Source of the DNA: Candidatus Kaiserbacteria bacterium | GTDB taxonomy: Bacteria > Patescibacteriota > Minisyncoccia > Phycocordibacterales > UBA2100 | Assembly (NCBI GenBank): GCA_016217965.1 | Contig: JACRFI010000021.1 | Location: 1 to 42,863 of the forward strand | DNA length: 42,863 bases | Direction: 5' to 3' | Shown: positions 33,944 through 41,370 of the stretch, in pieces | Layout of the letters: every line of letters starts with the position of its first letter | Numbering within the stretch: position 1 is the stretch's first letter | Notes under the pieces: model-generated | What the model was told of the DNA's origin: nothing | The model's database searches: none | What the model saw: the letters and a program-made list of their open reading frames with translations, nothing else | Made by a program: the position numbers and the translations under genes

Positions 33944-34519
33944 CTAGAGATGCGTCTCGCCAATGGCACGATTAACTTTTGAAAGCAATGCGGGACGCAA
34001 CACCTCTGCCTGCTCGAGAGAGTCTCCTGTATATGCAGTATGTGTGAATAACGCTGCTTCGAGCGCCTCTGGAGACAAGTACCCGAGCGCGTAGAGGATG
34101 CGCGCGACTGAAATAAGCTCTATCGTGCGCCACGATGCGCAAAGCGGTGCAGTAAGCGCACGATGCGCCTCCACCAGAACCTCGAACAAATAGTCGTTCT
34201 TTTCTTCGCCACCAATGAGGCGCACTACTAGCCGAGCGAGGCGCGCATACGCTTTTACACCGCTCTCCGTGGCAGCGTGAAAGGATGTGAGGGTCATCGC
34301 GCCCACAGCGCGCCAACCTCTCGCTCCGCGGATGAGCCCGACGCGGCAGCGCGAGAAATTCTGCAACGCGTATCGCATTTTTGAATTCTCCTTCCGGATT
34401 GCGGAGACACGTGCGCGAATGAGCCCAAAATCTTCCGTGTACAACACAATTGATCTGTCAGCCTCGCCCACATCCTTTCCGCCAAGGACTAAAGCATCAG
34501 TTTGGTATTTGGGATACAT
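33944..34519 (-). CDS. recO: DNA repair protein RecO
   Basis: RecO loads RecA on SSB-coated DNA with RecR/RecF. The N-terminal OB-fold is clear: TDALVLGGKDVGEADRSIVL, YTEDFGLIRARVSAIRK, then SRCRVGLIRGARGWRAVGA. The C-terminal helical domain (about 85-191) is short and lacks the four-cysteine zinc site found in many RecO proteins. At 191 aa it is below the usual 230-250, typical of reduced genomes. It begins 15 nt after the ileS stop and is probably cotranscribed with it. Confidence 0.85.
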   Translation of the reverse strand: MYPKYQTDALVLGGKDVGEADRSIVLYTEDFGLIRARVSAIRKENSKMRYALQNFSRCRVGLIRGARGWRAVGAMTLTSFHAATESGVKAYARLARLVVRLIGGEEKNDYLFEVLVEAHRALTAPLCASWRTIELISVARILYALGYLSPEALEAALFTHTAYTGDSLEQAEVLRPALLSKVNRAIGETHL

Positions 34520-34534
34520 GAGAGAAACAAAAAT

Positions 34535-37500
34535 TTATTTTAGTGAGATCTCCGTGTTCGTTCTCTCACCAATCATCTGGAGATTTTTCTCTATGAGAGA
34601 ACGGCTTTCCGGAGGAACAGTGATGGAGACACCGCCACGCTCGCCCGCGCGAAGCTTCGCGGACTTTCTTGCGTCCTGCACCAAGCGAATTGCATCCCTG
34701 ATGATGCCCTCTTCTTTCAACTCCTCCGTTATTTCCGTATCCAGGACCGGCTCCTCGATATCGCCGAGCGCCACTTCTTTTACATTCACTTCGTCCTTAA
34801 TGATATCGAGAAGGCCGACGTCCTCAATATTGTGCCTTCTTCCTATCGTAAGTTTCCTGAGGGGCTGGCGTACCTTTAGCCCCGCTTTGTCTCGCAAGAG
34901 GAGTGCGTGGGATACCACTTTTCTCACTGCCGCCATCTTTTCGATAAGCTCTACGCCTTCGTCAGAGCCGAATATCCTCGCAAACAAGCCGCGCCGAAGA
35001 GGCGTAGGCCACTCTTCCAAATGCACGCTTTCTAGTGGCCCCCCGACACCCCGATACACACTGTCAGCAATAAAAGGCGCGATGGGGGCGAGGAGCTTTG
35101 CGACAGTTACGAGCACGTGACGCTGCGCTCTAAGCGCGAATTGCTTATCCTCTGCATCGCCGCCTTTCACGCGCTCTCTCGATCTTCGCACATACCATGT
35201 CGAATAATCTTCGACAAAATCCCGGATCACGCGTGCCGCGGGTGGCAAGAGATACGCCTCCAGGCTTTCTGTTGCCGCGCGAATCGTCTCGTCGAGACGC
35301 GCCAGTATCCACCGGTCCAGAAAATGGGGAGAGCTTGCGGCATGCGACGTGTTGCCAGAAGCTAATTCGGACTTGTACAGTTCGAAAAACTTGTACGTAT
35401 TCCAAAGAAGCCCCATCACACGATTGTGCGTATCACGAACATCCTCGTCGCGAAAATTCAGGTCCTCCGCCTGCATCACCGGGCTTCCCATAAGATGGAA
35501 ACGCAGCGCATCCGCACCATACCTGTCCATGACGAGTAGCGGGTCTGTGTAGTTGCCTTTCGATTTCGACATCTTTGAGCCGTCAGCAGCTAGAATAGTT
35601 CCGGTCGAAACAACATTCCTGAATGCCAACCTATCGAAGAGGAGAACTCCCATCGCATGCATGTAATAAAACCAGGTGCGCGTTTGCGCAATGTATTCCG
35701 CAATGAAATCTCCTGGTGAATGTGTCTCGAATTCACGTTTATTCTGAAAGGGATAATGATACTCGGCAAACGGCATCGAGCCTGACTCCACCCAACAGTC
35801 TACGACTTCGGGTATCCGCTCATACTCTCTACCCTCATCGTCCACAAGCGTAATCGCATCCGTATACGGGCGGTGGAGGTCCAGGACAAAATCAGCATTC
35901 CAGGGCAGCGGAACGAAATCCAGTTTTCGAATTTCTGAGACGTTTGGATACTCGTTCTTGTACATGTCGAGTGCCCCGTCCCGCGATACGCCGCGCGCAA
36001 GCGCCTCTAGGAGCCAGATGGGAGTTCCGTGAGAGATTATGAGAATGCGTTTTCCCTTGTGTGTGCGCTCTAATTCCGACAGGAATTCTCCGATACGTCG
36101 TTGTATCTCGGTGAACGTCTCGCCTCCTTCAGGGGCGCGGTCAAACCTGTCTATCCTATCGGGAAATGCTTCATGCCACTCTTCGAGTGTTTTCCCGCTG
36201 TACGAGGGGCCAAACACAGATTCCTTGAGCCTATCTTCGTATACGATACTCCCTTCGGAGATGCCGAGTTCCTCAGCGGCGATCCGCGCCGTCTCTCTCG
36301 TCCGAACGAGAGGAGAAGCGAATATGAGATCAGGTTTTGCCGCGAGCGAGCGAGCTGCCTCTCGGACTGCCTTTTTTCCTGCATCCGTAAGGTGTATCGG
36401 CGCATCGACATCGGAATTCACTGTCCCATTCGCATTCGTATCCGCCTCGCCATGGCGCATGACAAAGTATTCGTTCCTCGAGCGCTTGGATCTTTTTTTC
36501 AATTCCTCAACTGATCCGATAACCATCACATGCTTCCCGTCTTTCGTTTTCCAGATAGGAAGCGGTGATGCCCAGAACCTGTTCCGAGAAATGGTCCAAT
36601 CCGGCGCACTTTCGACGATATTTTTGAATCGCCCGTGCTTGAGATGTTCCGGAATCCACGTGACCTTTTCATTCTCCGATAGCATTTTTTCTTTCACCTT
36701 TTGGATGTTGATGAACCAAGAAGAAACAGCGTTGTAGATGAGGGGCGTACCACAGCGATAGCAGTGTGGATACGAGTGCGTGTGATTTTCGCGCTTGAAC
36801 ATGAGGTTGCGCGCTTCGAGGTCTTTTTTGATGTCGCGTTCTGCATCTTTGATGTACTTTCCGCGTAAGAATTCTGGCGCGATGTCCTGATAGGTGCCAT
36901 TTGGATTGAGCATTTGTACCATCGGAAGGCCTTCTTTCTGTCCGAGTACAAAATCGTCTTCACCGTACATAACTGCCGTATGCACGATGCCAGTTCCATC
37001 TTCGGTCGAAACAAAATCTGCCGCATACACGCGATGCGATTTTTCTGTCTGCATCGGCTTGATATCAAAGAGAGGTTCGTACTCGATTCCGACCAAATCG
37101 CTTCCTCGCAGATTTTTTATGAGCGTTCCTTGTGGTGCTTGTGGTTGAGCCGTCACGAACGACTCGTCATCTTTCTGCACAAGTCCATAGTTAATTTCCT
37201 GCCCCACAGCAAGCGCCACATTCCCCGGCAGCGTCCACGGCGTCGTCGTCCACGCAAGAAGGTATGTATGTTCTGGAAGCCCATGTCTCCCCGGATTCTT
37301 TACCTTGAATTTCACCGTCACCGCTTCTTCCGTTATATCTTTGTACGTGTTATCCATCGCAATCTCCGCCTTAGCAAGAGGCGTCTCGCAATGCGGGCAG
37401 TACATGAGAACTTTCCTACCTTCATAGAGAAGCGACTTCTCGTGCAATTTTTTAAGCGCCCACCAGACGCTCTCGATGTACGAATTGTCCATCGTCTTGT

Positions 37501-37945
37501 ATGAATTCTTGAAATCAACGAATCGGCCGACACGGTCGACATACTTTTCCCACTCATCCGCAAATTCAAGGACGCTCGCACGGGCAGCTTCGTTGAATGT
37601 ATCAATCCCGATATCGAGAATATCCTTTTTTGTCTTTAGATTGAGCTTTTTCTCTATCAAACTCTCGATGGGAAGCCCGTGGCAATCCCACCCCCAGCGC
37701 CTGCGTACACGGTACCCCCGCATCGTTTTGTAGCGCGGAATAACGTCCTTAATGATGGATGAGAGCATTGAACCCGTGTGTGGAAGCCCCGTTGCAAAAG
37801 GCGGCCCGTCATAAAAGACGAACTCGCCTTTCGGAGCTTTTTTCTCGAGCGATTTCTCGAATATCTTGTTCTCTTTCCAGAATTTCAGAACCTCCTCCTC
37901 TCGCTTCGACGTATCGCTTTTCTGTTCCTGGACCGGTTCACTCAT
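34535..37945 (-). CDS. ileS: Isoleucyl-tRNA synthetase with inserted histidine phosphatase domain
   Basis: Class I synthetase charging tRNA-Ile (1136 aa). The HIGH motif is HTGS (56-59) and KMSKS is 791-795. The editing domain is about 190-400 (YLLAWTTTPWTLPGN), and the anticodon domain follows 830. The sequence resembles the archaeal/eukaryotic IleRS type. Between IGSVEELKK (about 477-484) and ADFVLDLHRPYTD (about 684-696), normally joined by a short linker, lies a complete histidine phosphatase domain of about 195 residues. It contains VMRHGEADTN (R497, H498), SPLVRTRETA (R548), DRLKESVFG (E575) and IISHGTPIWL (H639). All core residues are present. It is followed closely by recO. TAGGAT ends 6 nt before the ATG. 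Confidence 0.95.
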   Translation of the reverse strand: MSEPVQEQKSDTSKREEEVLKFWKENKIFEKSLEKKAPKGEFVFYDGPPFATGLPHTGSMLSSIIKDVIPRYKTMRGYRVRRRWGWDCHGLPIESLIEKKLNLKTKKDILDIGIDTFNEAARASVLEFADEWEKYVDRVGRFVDFKNSYKTMDNSYIESVWWALKKLHEKSLLYEGRKVLMYCPHCETPLAKAEIAMDNTYKDITEEAVTVKFKVKNPGRHGLPEHTYLLAWTTTPWTLPGNVALAVGQEINYGLVQKDDESFVTAQPQAPQGTLIKNLRGSDLVGIEYEPLFDIKPMQTEKSHRVYAADFVSTEDGTGIVHTAVMYGEDDFVLGQKEGLPMVQMLNPNGTYQDIAPEFLRGKYIKDAERDIKKDLEARNLMFKRENHTHSYPHCYRCGTPLIYNAVSSWFINIQKVKEKMLSENEKVTWIPEHLKHGRFKNIVESAPDWTISRNRFWASPLPIWKTKDGKHVMVIGSVEELKKRSKRSRNEYFVMRHGEADTNANGTVNSDVDAPIHLTDAGKKAVREAARSLAAKPDLIFASPLVRTRETARIAAEELGISEGSIVYEDRLKESVFGPSYSGKTLEEWHEAFPDRIDRFDRAPEGGETFTEIQRRIGEFLSELERTHKGKRILIISHGTPIWLLEALARGVSRDGALDMYKNEYPNVSEIRKLDFVPLPWNADFVLDLHRPYTDAITLVDDEGREYERIPEVVDCWVESGSMPFAEYHYPFQNKREFETHSPGDFIAEYIAQTRTWFYYMHAMGVLLFDRLAFRNVVSTGTILAADGSKMSKSKGNYTDPLLVMDRYGADALRFHLMGSPVMQAEDLNFRDEDVRDTHNRVMGLLWNTYKFFELYKSELASGNTSHAASSPHFLDRWILARLDETIRAATESLEAYLLPPAARVIRDFVEDYSTWYVRRSRERVKGGDAEDKQFALRAQRHVLVTVAKLLAPIAPFIADSVYRGVGGPLESVHLEEWPTPLRRGLFARIFGSDEGVELIEKMAAVRKVVSHALLLRDKAGLKVRQPLRKLTIGRRHNIEDVGLLDIIKDEVNVKEVALGDIEEPVLDTEITEELKEEGIIRDAIRLVQDARKSAKLRAGERGGVSITVPPESRSLIEKNLQMIGERTNTEISLK

Positions 37946-37951
37946 TGCGCT

Positions 37952-37957
37952 ATCCTA
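37952..37957 (-). promoter_or_regulatory. Possible leaderless promoter of ileS
   Basis: TAGGAT (4/6) on the minus strand is followed by 6 nt and ATG (37945). Confidence 0.4.
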
Positions 37958-38049
37958 GCAGAAATCCGCTCTCGCGGAACGCGTAACGTCCTCTCTGGAG
38001 CAGGAATACCAAGAGGCCATAACTATTCCTCACCACCTGAGGCCGGCAC

Positions 38050-38319
38050 TCACGCCGCTGTAATGCTAAAACGTGCAACATCATCCTGGTACTGTGCCTT
38101 ACTGATGCGGAATCCGTCGGGCATGTTCAAAACCCCTGTGCTACCCGGCAAGTCACTGCGAAAAATAAATACCTTGTCAACTATCGACCCGATAGGGAGA
38201 GACCGTAAATATGCTGATCGTTCCCCGCTAAAGTATCGCGTGTACATTTCATCTACTTTTTGCTCGAACGATACCTCGCGCAGGATCATACGACCTGTCC
38301 GTTGGATAGCGCGAATCAT
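38050..38319 (-). pseudogene. C-terminal part of the nitrilase-like protein in a shifted frame
   Basis: This frame overlaps the end of the 267-aa gene and is offset by +1 relative to it. From ATG 38319 it encodes 89 residues, of which RMILREVSFEQKVDEMYTRY and KVFIFRSDLPGSTGVLNMPD look like the closing strands of a nitrilase domain, which the main frame lacks. The simplest reading is one gene broken by a single-base frameshift between about 38250 and 38320. Alternatives are a separate small overlapping gene (a TACAAT box ends 10 nt before the ATG), a sequencing error, or programmed frameshifting. Confidence 0.5.
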
Positions 38320-39052
38320 CGAGTAGGTAATTGTAATTTGGGTTTTGTAAAAGCTGATTCCGTATTTCGTCGCGGGTAGGAACTTCCCCCGCAAGACCCT
38401 GCATCCGCAACGACAACCAAGGGTCATCGTTCTCGCGAGACGGGTTATATAACGTTTCGATACCCACCAAATGCTCCGGTTTTGCATCTCTAATCTCTCC
38501 GCAAATCGAAATACCAGTCGAAGTGCCCGGTACAACATGCACCGGACGCGCTGCCCACGACTTCGGAAAAACAAAAACCCTCCCGTCTTTGCCAAAATAC
38601 ATACCCATTGATTCTGGCTCGTCACTCTCCGGAATCGCTTCTTGTTCGATTTCAACAGACGGATCGCTTGCACGAATTTTTTTCTTGAGAGTTGCCCAAT
38701 TCTCTCGAGCATATGTCACCTGCTCAGTTCGATCATCTCCACCGGCCCTTTCCCATCCAGCCATTGAAGGTTCAGGCCCGATACGCACAGCAGGGTTCGC
38801 TGGAGCTAGGATTATGTTTATATGATGTTTCTTTGCAGATTCGCGTAGATCAGCAAAATGCCGTATTGCGTCGTCGACGGCTAAGTCGAATTCTTTCAAC
38901 ATAACGAGCGACGGTTCGTTCCGTGCTTCCCGTTCGACCAACTGCAATAAGTTATCAACTTTCTCACAGTTGAAGCCCACTAGGATTCGTGTTTCGTTCG
39001 GATCTCGCTCAATCTTTCTGTCAGGTATGCCAGTTGTGCCTTCGAAGCCCAT
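38249..39052 (-). CDS. Carbon-nitrogen hydrolase (nitrilase)-like protein, C-terminus shifted out of frame
   Basis: A 267-aa frame. It begins with a strand-helix pattern (RILVGFNCEKVDNLLQLVER) and shows a possible nitrilase triad: E54 in VMLKEFDL, K164 in VFVFPKSWAA and C184 in ISICGEIRDAKPEHL, in the right order for the Glu-Lys-Cys enzymes that hydrolyse amides or nitriles. The motifs are divergent, so the family call is moderate. The end of this frame (after PTDRSYDP) is abrupt, and the expected C-terminal strands continue in the +1 frame at 38050-38319. It starts 6 nt after the argS stop and is probably cotranscribed with argS. Confidence 0.5.
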   Translation of the reverse strand: MGFEGTTGIPDRKIERDPNETRILVGFNCEKVDNLLQLVEREARNEPSLVMLKEFDLAVDDAIRHFADLRESAKKHHINIILAPANPAVRIGPEPSMAGWERAGGDDRTEQVTYARENWATLKKKIRASDPSVEIEQEAIPESDEPESMGMYFGKDGRVFVFPKSWAARPVHVVPGTSTGISICGEIRDAKPEHLVGIETLYNPSRENDDPWLSLRMQGLAGEVPTRDEIRNQLLQNPNYNYLLDDSRYPTDRSYDPARGIVRAKSR

Positions 39053-39058
39053 ACAAAA

Positions 39059-40732
39059 TCACATCTTTTCCGGCGCAGGAATGCCGAGGAGCCATAGGCC
39101 ATTCTTGAGCGTGATACGCACCGCATCGGTAAGGGCTACTTTGTGTGCGGCGGCGGGCGTTCCATCGAGTATTTGTTCCGCGGCGTACCAACGATTGAAT
39201 TCAGCTGCGAGTGAAATAAGGTAATTTGTGACGATGTGTGGTTCCAATAATTCCGCCGCACGTTTTGTTATTGCAGGAAAACGAATCAGGAGCCGCGCCA
39301 CATCGCTTGCCGGAGTGTTTGCGTCAAACTTCGCCTCAACTCCCGCGCCTTTCGCTTTCTCTGCTATCGCATTCGTGCGGGCATATGCGTATTGCAGATA
39401 CGGACCCGAATCGCCTTCCATCGAGAGAGCCCTTTCCCTATCGAAAATAATGTCTTTTCCGAACGCCTGCTTCAGTATTTGATATTTTATTGCCGCGACA
39501 GCAACGTGCTCTGCCAACATTTCGGGATCCTCTGCCCTGCTATCGGTCGCCCTCCCTCGCGCTTTTTCTTTGAGATCGTTAAGAAGCTCTTCGCCCGTGA
39601 TGATGTTCCCGAGGCGCGACGACATCTTTCCTTCAGCGAACCGCAAAAGCCCATTCGTTTTGAACGCAAGTTTTCCCTGCAAATCCGGTAGGGCAAATTC
39701 CATCGCTTTCATGACAACTTTGAAGTATTCAGCTTGCTCATTCGCGGTGACGGTAAGCGTGAGATCAAACGGGTACTTACTTCTCTTCAGGCGAGCTAGA
39801 CCCAGCTCTTTTGCCTCGTAGGTTGGAAGCCCCAATTTATTGATGAATACGCGCGTGTGAAGGCCGTGCTCCTCACCGCGGAAAATTATCGCGCCCTCGC
39901 TTTCTGGAAAAATGTCTGGGTGCGAGCGGACTTCCGCAATTCCGACCGGCCCCGTCTCGCTTTCAAAGAAATAGTAATCGAATTTCGTGCCGAGTATCTT
40001 GTAGAGTTCCTCGAAATGCGAGAGTGAGAGTGTTCTTCCTTTTTCATACAATGAATTCACACGATCGTCGCTTTTGTCATATATCTTTTTGTTAAGTTCA
40101 TCTATCGCTTTTTTTGCCGAACTGTCTTCATCATATCGACGCGAGCCTTCCGGATACGCCGCCGCAAGATCCTCTATCGTCGGGTCGGTAATTCCTTTCT
40201 CCAGCTGTATGAAGAGAGACTTTGCCACGTGGATGCCAACGTCGCCTTGATAATTCGCGCGCTTCACTTCCGCGCCCGCAAATTCGTACATGCGAGATAC
40301 GCTCTCGCCGAGTGCATTTGGAACCAGATGCCCAATGTGAAATTCCTTGAACGGATTCGGGTCCGTGTATTCGAACAACACTTTCTTTCCCTTTTGCCCT
40401 TCGCCTTTCCCATATGCATCTGGATCAGAGCGGACCGCCTCAAGTCCGGCACATACGAGTTGCGCGGAGAGTGTGAAATTAAGAAAACCAGGCCCCGCAA
40501 TATCAACTTTTGACACTCCTTCGATGGAGCTCACGCTGCCCGCAAGTTTTTCTGCAAGTACACGAGCCGCTAAACCCGCGGCCTTGCTGTATGCAAGCGC
40601 AACGCTGGAAGCAAAATCTCCGCGGGAAAGGTCCTCGGTAAGTTCTATCGGGATGCTCGCAGGCTCAGCGGAAACGCCCACGTCCCTCAGTGCGGCAGCA
40701 AGCTTCTCTTTCGCAGTGTGCATCGTATCCAT
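39059..40732 (-). CDS. argS: Arginyl-tRNA synthetase
   Basis: Class I synthetase charging tRNA-Arg (557 aa from ATG 40732). An upstream in-frame start at 40774 would overlap tmk; TACAAT ending 6 nt before 40732 supports the shorter form. The Arg-tRNA-binding N-terminal domain is about 1-90. HIGH is FHIGH (131-135), and the KMSKS counterpart is GKMSSRLGN. The helical DALR anticodon domain is present, ending VRITLKNGLWLLGIPAPEKM. It follows tmk by 14 nt. Confidence 0.95.
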   Translation of the reverse strand: MDTMHTAKEKLAAALRDVGVSAEPASIPIELTEDLSRGDFASSVALAYSKAAGLAARVLAEKLAGSVSSIEGVSKVDIAGPGFLNFTLSAQLVCAGLEAVRSDPDAYGKGEGQKGKKVLFEYTDPNPFKEFHIGHLVPNALGESVSRMYEFAGAEVKRANYQGDVGIHVAKSLFIQLEKGITDPTIEDLAAAYPEGSRRYDEDSSAKKAIDELNKKIYDKSDDRVNSLYEKGRTLSLSHFEELYKILGTKFDYYFFESETGPVGIAEVRSHPDIFPESEGAIIFRGEEHGLHTRVFINKLGLPTYEAKELGLARLKRSKYPFDLTLTVTANEQAEYFKVVMKAMEFALPDLQGKLAFKTNGLLRFAEGKMSSRLGNIITGEELLNDLKEKARGRATDSRAEDPEMLAEHVAVAAIKYQILKQAFGKDIIFDRERALSMEGDSGPYLQYAYARTNAIAEKAKGAGVEAKFDANTPASDVARLLIRFPAITKRAAELLEPHIVTNYLISLAAEFNRWYAAEQILDGTPAAAHKVALTDAVRITLKNGLWLLGIPAPEKM

Positions 40733-40738
40733 GGTAAA

Positions 40739-40744
40739 ATTGTA
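40739..40744 (-). promoter_or_regulatory. Leaderless promoter of argS
   Basis: TACAAT (5/6) on the minus strand is followed by 6 nt and ATG (40732). It lies in the tmk-argS gap, 2 nt below the tmk stop at 40747. Confidence 0.55.
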
Positions 40745-40746
40745 CG

Positions 40747-41370
40747 TTATATGCGTTTCTCTATCTCCTCCCACATCCTCCTTTGCACTTCCTGAGGGGG
40801 CAGCAATGCGGGAATGACCACCGCCCGCTTGGAAAACCGCTTCGCAAATTCCAAATACCCGGCCCTTACTCGTGCCTGGTATGCCTCGTTCTTCTCATCA
40901 AACCTGTCCTCGCTACTTCTCCCGTGCCTGCGCTTTCGTGCCGCAGCAATCGGCGCGTCCAAAATAATGTAGAGGTCTGGTTCGCAGCCAGCGAGCGTGT
41001 GTTCGCGGCACTGCCAGAAAAGCTTTTCAATGCTCTTTTGCCTATCTCCCCGCACTTGCATAGCGAATGTGGATGAATCAAACCTGTCGCTAATAACTAC
41101 TTTCCCTTTCTTTAATGCGGGGAGAATGCGTGCCCCAACATGCTCCGCGCGAGCCGCCCAAAATAGAAAAAAATCAGTAAGTGGATCGAGCTGCGGCTCT
41201 TGCTCCGCCTTCAGTATGCTTCGGATACGTTCCGCTCTCGGAGCACCGCCTGGCTCGTGAGTAAATAAAGCCCGCTTCCCAAGTTTCTTTTTGAGAAATG
41301 CGAGCTGCGTGGTCTTACCCGCGCCGCCGATGCCATCAACAACAAAAAATGCGCCTTTCATAAGGCGCAT
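40747..41370 (-). CDS. tmk: Thymidylate kinase
   Basis: Phosphorylates dTMP to dTDP for DNA synthesis. P-loop DGIGGAGKTTQ (about 13-23), the DRX-type motif ISDRFDSSTFAMQ, and a LID region with Arg residues (AARKRRHGRSSEDRFDE) are all present; 207 aa is normal. The start is ATG 41370 or ATG 41361. The first nine codons coincide with the terminator hairpin of the upstream ribosomal operon, with the 41361 ATG in the loop. It is followed by argS after 14 nt. Confidence 0.92.
   Translation of the reverse strand: MRLMKGAFFVVDGIGGAGKTTQLAFLKKKLGKRALFTHEPGGAPRAERIRSILKAEQEPQLDPLTDFFLFWAARAEHVGARILPALKKGKVVISDRFDSSTFAMQVRGDRQKSIEKLFWQCREHTLAGCEPDLYIILDAPIAAARKRRHGRSSEDRFDEKNEAYQARVRAGYLEFAKRFSKRAVVIPALLPPQEVQRRMWEEIEKRI
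41344..41370 (-). terminator. Terminator hairpin overlapping the tmk start
   Basis: On the minus strand, ATGCGCCTT (41370-41362), loop ATGA (41361-41358), AAGGCGCAT (41357-41349), then TTTTTTGTT. The 9-bp stem is perfect and is followed by a U tract. It ends the secE-nusG-rplK transcript while encoding the first residues of tmk; ATG 41361 is in the loop. Confidence 0.75.

Follow-up and report, generated by a model that had tools for sequence, protein, structure and literature searches.

Why should a Candidatus Kaiserbacteria bacterium carry a complete histidine phosphatase within its isoleucyl-tRNA synthetase (IleRS)? The question is raised by the 42,863-nucleotide stretch of DNA analyzed here (the window), for which a first-pass annotation had described an intact reading frame with a full histidine phosphatase inside IleRS, at a point where IleRSs of this type have only a short linker. 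Both parts of this description were borne out. The gene is a single unbroken frame (Table 1), Pfam places His_Phos_1 (PF00300) at residues 494-658 within tRNA-synt_1 (E 3.6e-34), and the NCBIfam ileS model TIGR00392 matches on both flanks of the insert (831.3 bits against a cut-off of 621.4) in two pieces that break at model positions ∼503 and ∼509. The insert interrupts the IleRS zinc ribbon between its two cysteine pairs, where insert-less relatives have a linker of ∼10 residues between CxxC and CxC, and the coordinates first given for it were correct to within one residue. The CxxC of the upstream half is retained in many relatives, though not in the window. The gene order around ileS (33944-40774, minus strand) is argS, a 267-aa ORF, ileS, and recO; the 267-aa ORF (38249-39052, minus strand) has no Pfam match. 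At another locus, L236, an argS-like ORF, ileS, and a recO-like ORF are likewise neighbors.

Table 1. Features of the window ileS gene, its insert, and the predicted catalytic residues
Feature	Position	Strand	Basis or conservation
ileS, isoleucyl-tRNA synthetase (IleRS2-like) with inserted phosphatase, 1136 aa	34535..37945	-	ORF, Pfam, NCBIfam, structure matches
Inserted branch-1 histidine phosphatase domain, residues 487-684 (198 residues; span approximate)	35894..36487	-	PF00300, AF2, structural matches
Zinc-ribbon region of IleRS, upstream half, residues 461-486; CxxC gone in window	36488..36565	-	
Zinc-ribbon region of IleRS, downstream half, residues 687-712, DLHRPYTD motif; CxC gone in window	35810..35887	-	
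R497-H498 codons, RHG motif, predicted phosphohistidine nucleophile	36452..36457	-	Invariant in 41 aligned IleRSs; 126/127 inserts
R548 codon, phosphate-pocket Arg	36302..36304	-	Invariant
E575 codon, predicted acid/base	36221..36223	-	E in 124/127 and D in 3/127 inserts; nearly invariant in 41 IleRSs
H639 codon, second catalytic His	36029..36031	-	Invariant in 127 inserts and 41 aligned IleRSs

The host protein is an isoleucyl-tRNA synthetase, as judged from its score above the model cut-off, its class Ia core, an intact KMSKS motif, and a structural match at Z 44. AlphaFold2 (AF2) modeled the whole protein from a 41-sequence alignment with a mean pLDDT of 89.9 and a pTM of 0.84, and the IleRS body matches solved IleRS structures, type 2 among them, at Z 40-44 and ∼40% identity, with the entire body aligning to type-2 IleRS of P. 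megaterium (8c8u) and to the yeast (7d5c) and T. thermophilus (1ile) enzymes. What distinguishes it from type-2 IleRS is the 198-residue enzyme in the zinc-ribbon loop. Neither HXGH nor the known G/AXHH motif is found in the window protein, which reads HTGS at residues 56-59, with the second His gone; its closest kin have HHGS, HSGS, or HIGN at this position. Since the enzyme is otherwise intact, we read HTGS as a motif variant that tempers the IleRS assignment without overturning it. Among the remaining insert-bearing IleRSs, roughly one third or more have the swapped G/AXHH form, which has been linked to mupirocin hyper-resistance in IleRS2 (PMC10485003).

The comparison with PF00300 and the structure prediction that had been proposed at the outset returned both the match and the family fold. 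The insert scores 118.6 bits against the PF00300 cut-off of 21.7, which places it among the branch-1 histidine phosphatases, and when modeled alone (AF2 pLDDT 96.2, pTM 0.92) it adopts a phosphoglycerate-mutase-like fold, with Z-scores of 22.5 to 4ij6 and 21.4 to 1h2e. The nearest solved relatives are phosphoserine phosphatase 1 of H. thermophilus (4ij5), glucosyl-3-phosphoglycerate phosphatase Rv2419c (4qih), and PhoE/YhfR (1h2e and 1ebb), at Z 21-22 and Foldseek E-values of ∼1e-12, with ∼182 residues aligned at an rmsd of 2.3-2.5 and ∼25% identity. These enzymes have the fold, the RHG motif, and the R, E, H catalytic set in common with the insert but stand alone, whereas the window phosphatase is part of a synthetase. 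Against the functional NCBIfam models (phosphoserine phosphatase, CobC, dPGM, and RNase H/acid phosphatase) the insert falls below every cut-off, the best results being 94.9 against 326, 79.8 against 225 (dPGM), and 70.6 against 162.9 bits, and the standalone members of its subfamily do likewise. Hence, although the nearest structures are small-metabolite phosphatases, no named substrate is to be assigned. A glycolytic phosphoglycerate mutase housed in IleRS would be in keeping with the inclusion of dPGM in PF00300 and with the lack of a PF01676 enzyme in most relatives, but the score far below the dPGM cut-off and the phosphatase character of the nearest structures speak against it. Moreover, the window genome has its own PF01676-type mutase candidate, and it and all eight other relatives with such a candidate also carry the insert, so that a glycolytic role for the insert is very improbable.

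The trait is widespread rather than a rarity of one genome. Among 60 relatives, the insert was present in IleRS frames in 23 of the 24 other families of the window's order; within its own genus it occurs in 8 of 36 genomes, the window's included, the remainder having an IleRS of 930-1030 aa without the insert, or partial genes only. At E 1e-20, a profile of the insert plus its junction finds matches in 227 of the 286 genomes examined from the class, a count that mixes forms, many of the weaker matches being standalone genes; among the matches listed, the best ∼150 all lie in long frames (737-1353 aa). The insert recurs in several further families of the phylum. Named carriers include Nomurabacteria, Adlerbacteria, Taylorbacteria, Zambryskibacteria, Yanofskybacteria, Liptonbacteria, Wildermuthbacteria, and others in Paceibacterota/Parcubacteria and, beyond these names, a Peregrinibacterium. 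At E 1e-30, 299 Bacillota genomes gave standalone matches only and no fused form, and 299 Pseudomonadota genomes gave no match, an empty answer that proves little by itself. The fusion also turned up on a short contig of a 0.4-Mb Spirochaetia MAG (L147), a probable case of mis-binning. The domain is absent from many genomes, and from some every PF00300 protein is absent. The window comes from a 23-contig assembly, which could raise the suspicion of a chimeric join or a sequencing artefact, but the same junction is found in more than 100 independent genomes, including one-contig ones such as G037, and such an origin is thereby refuted.

The first-pass annotation had left room for an insert confined to this assembly and for relatives without the catalytic His and Arg residues, and had proposed a survey of CPR IleRSs. 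The survey found the insert class-wide, with the full R-H-R-E/D-H set in 126 of 127 IleRS inserts, the lone exception being a truncated insert. All five residues listed in that annotation (R497, H498, R548, E575, and H639) are present in the window, and four of them are invariant among the 41 aligned IleRSs, with E575 nearly so. Mean pairwise identity over 41 sequences is 35% for the insert compared with 49% for the body. The insert has thus diverged far yet retained its catalytic set, which is most simply read as retention for catalysis. The view that intact catalytic residues reflect selection and not debris has therefore gained from the wider sample, and the alignments support a complete phosphatase domain that is probably held catalytically intact by selection. 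As a purely structural insert, a spacer or a tRNA-binding platform with no catalysis, the domain might replace the ribbon, given that the flanking zinc cysteines are lost in half of the insert-bearing IleRSs sampled; the invariance of the catalytic residues while the remaining domain diverges makes this extremely improbable.

The phosphatase subfamily is associated with ileS in two ways: its members either sit in the loop of the synthetase or are encoded by a gene of their own in front of ileS. At eight loci (L074, from the window's own genus, L186, L188, and L217-L221) a phosphatase gene of ∼190-235 codons lies directly upstream of an insert-less ileS on the same strand, the spacing from stop to likely start being a 4-nucleotide overlap in two cases, 3-5 nucleotides in five, and 70 nucleotides in one. 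Six more genomes of one family have a subfamily gene within ∼2 kb upstream of ileS. The ileS-linked separate genes score 141-188 bits against the insert profile (that of L188 as two pieces), compared with ∼60-130 for generic standalone phosphatases, and most generic PF00300 genes in the same genomes do not adjoin ileS. The window's own genome has two such generic genes in tandem (L001 and L003, G000:C16:75420-76644), which the tree assigns to another lineage than the window insert. That members of the subfamily are operon neighbors of ileS ties the phosphatase to IleRS, whereas the location of a subfamily gene away from ileS in one family counts against a functional link.

Of the 51 IleRS inserts placed in a phosphatase-domain tree, 47 group with all of the adjacent and all of the near genes, to the exclusion of every generic standalone enzyme (SH-aLRT 87). 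The four inserts outside this group comprise two second tandem copies, one from a three-copy IleRS, and one single insert. Constraining a reduced Ile-linked set to one clade was not rejected (p-AU 0.49), which does not in itself prove the clade. On the tree of IleRS bodies at least 11 changes of insert state are needed, and the adjacent-gene forms are basal to large groups, indicating that the insert was gained or lost, or that transfer replaced ileS, in the course of this history. In the body tree, the insert-less and insert-bearing IleRSs of the window's own genus fall into three or more separate clades, a pattern suggestive of ileS replacement by transfer. The L074 phosphatase has the L111 insert as its nearest neighbor (support 92), and the L074 IleRS body lies near those of L111 and L114, so that this locus looks like a fission. 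Some lineages have lost the phosphatase entirely.

The valyl enzyme, ValRS, carries a histidine phosphatase at the equivalent loop in L004, L005, L044, L120, L124-L127, and others, and in tandem in L122; these phosphatases come from at least three lineages, so that ValRS has gained one at this loop no fewer than three times. Within IleRS, the members of family f173 have two tandem phosphatases, and a 1572-aa IleRS (L119:2167-6882, plus strand) has three histidine phosphatase domains, each at a site of its own. Another IleRS (L121:2638-6990, minus strand) has an inserted GNAT domain together with a phosphatase that immediately precedes the anticodon-binding domain, and one ValRS (L123:1327-5157, plus strand) has inserted HAD-type, serine-hydrolase-type, and histidine-phosphatase domains. 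The length of a 1519-aa IleRS without a phosphatase (L228:7-4563, plus strand) is due to an intein (PF14890). Among frames longer than 500 aa in the 60 genomes, PF00300 occurs only in IleRS, ValRS, and two fusions of D-2-hydroxyacid dehydrogenase to dPGM, no other synthetase being a host. The two fusions, 560-aa frames that we had considered as synthetase hosts, come from two genomes of the window's own genus (L240 and L241) and have a dPGM-like domain with the motif RHTESEWN.

These observations bear on whether the phosphatase serves the synthetase or is merely carried and co-expressed by it, as an active general metabolic enzyme whose substrate is unrelated to aminoacylation. In the latter case the zinc-ribbon loop would simply tolerate insertion, and the gene would already have been next to ileS. 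Carriage of this kind would account for the interchange of neighbor gene and insert, for the complete loss of the domain in many genomes, and for the small-metabolite phosphatases that are its closest solved relatives, and the GNAT, HAD, and serine-hydrolase domains in the IleRS and ValRS loops of other families fit a permissive loop and count against a functional link. However, the association is specific, as seen from where most generic PF00300 genes of these genomes lie, from the restriction among synthetases, and from the separate acquisition of a phosphatase by ValRS at the equivalent loop. Simple carriage is a real but lesser possibility. The branch-1 histidine phosphatases include some that act on proteins, and together with the placement of the domain on the synthetase body this could point to self-regulation, in which the domain would dephosphorylate its own synthetase or a partner, for instance by removing phosphate added by a HipA-type kinase that targets synthetases. 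No HipA_C kinase was found in any of the 60 relatives, with positive controls detected, which makes reversal of HipA phosphorylation unlikely; as the nearest solved relatives act on small molecules, self-regulation in general is a poor candidate.

We therefore favor, at a probability of roughly 0.58, a predicted active histidine phosphatase that is functionally linked to IleRS, most likely one with a small substrate. By analogy with the family, the insert would act on a small phosphomonoester through phosphohistidine chemistry: His-498 would take the phosphoryl group, Arg-497, Arg-548, and His-639 would hold the phosphate with Glu-575 as the acid/base, and water would then free the phosphate from the enzyme. 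Its seat on IleRS would let the phosphatase act where IleRS works, and the most plausible putative target is a phosphorylated molecule, for instance a nucleotide like AMP or an alarmone, that arises as a by-product of the reaction or inhibits it, or else a phosphorylated tRNA-Ile end. The complete loss of the domain in many relatives, and the absence of PF00300 from several genomes, indicate that the activity is conditional or dispensable and not essential for aminoacylation, so the role would be a conditional or quality-control one and not an essential step. A more far-reaching proposal, which we hold only tentatively, is that IleRS of Patescibacteria and, by convergence, ValRS have a third catalytic function besides charging and editing, a built-in phosphatase that clears a phosphorylated tRNA end, a nucleotide by-product, or an inhibitor, and thus performs an unrecognized quality-control step in much of the phylum.

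Conservation across very distant relatives suggests an unrecognized chemical job tied to protein synthesis. Together, the fused, operon-partner, and ValRS forms would imply that aminoacylation centrally involves a phosphorylated substrate which has never been sought, and the separate-gene form offers a direct way to test this in vitro. The insert is also a marker for Patescibacteria ileS genes and offers a handle on the biochemistry of this huge group of tiny, mostly uncultured bacteria.

Extra domains are already known from other synthetases. NCBIfam NF040702 describes an IleRS with an N-acetyltransferase domain, which likewise bears an extra small enzyme, although a different one, and the window IleRS falls far short of that model (312.9 against a cut-off of 1999 bits). 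A full-text search of open-licence papers found none that describes an IleRS or ValRS with a histidine phosphatase. As far as that literature shows, the catalytically conserved phosphatase in the IleRS core, its wide occurrence in the phylum, its operon counterpart, and the convergent ValRS cases are new. The MetRS of M. penetrans (PMC13215547) is likewise a synthetase with a fused accessory domain, encoded in a small genome; there the domain is a terminal extension, whereas the window has a complete enzyme inside the catalytic core region.
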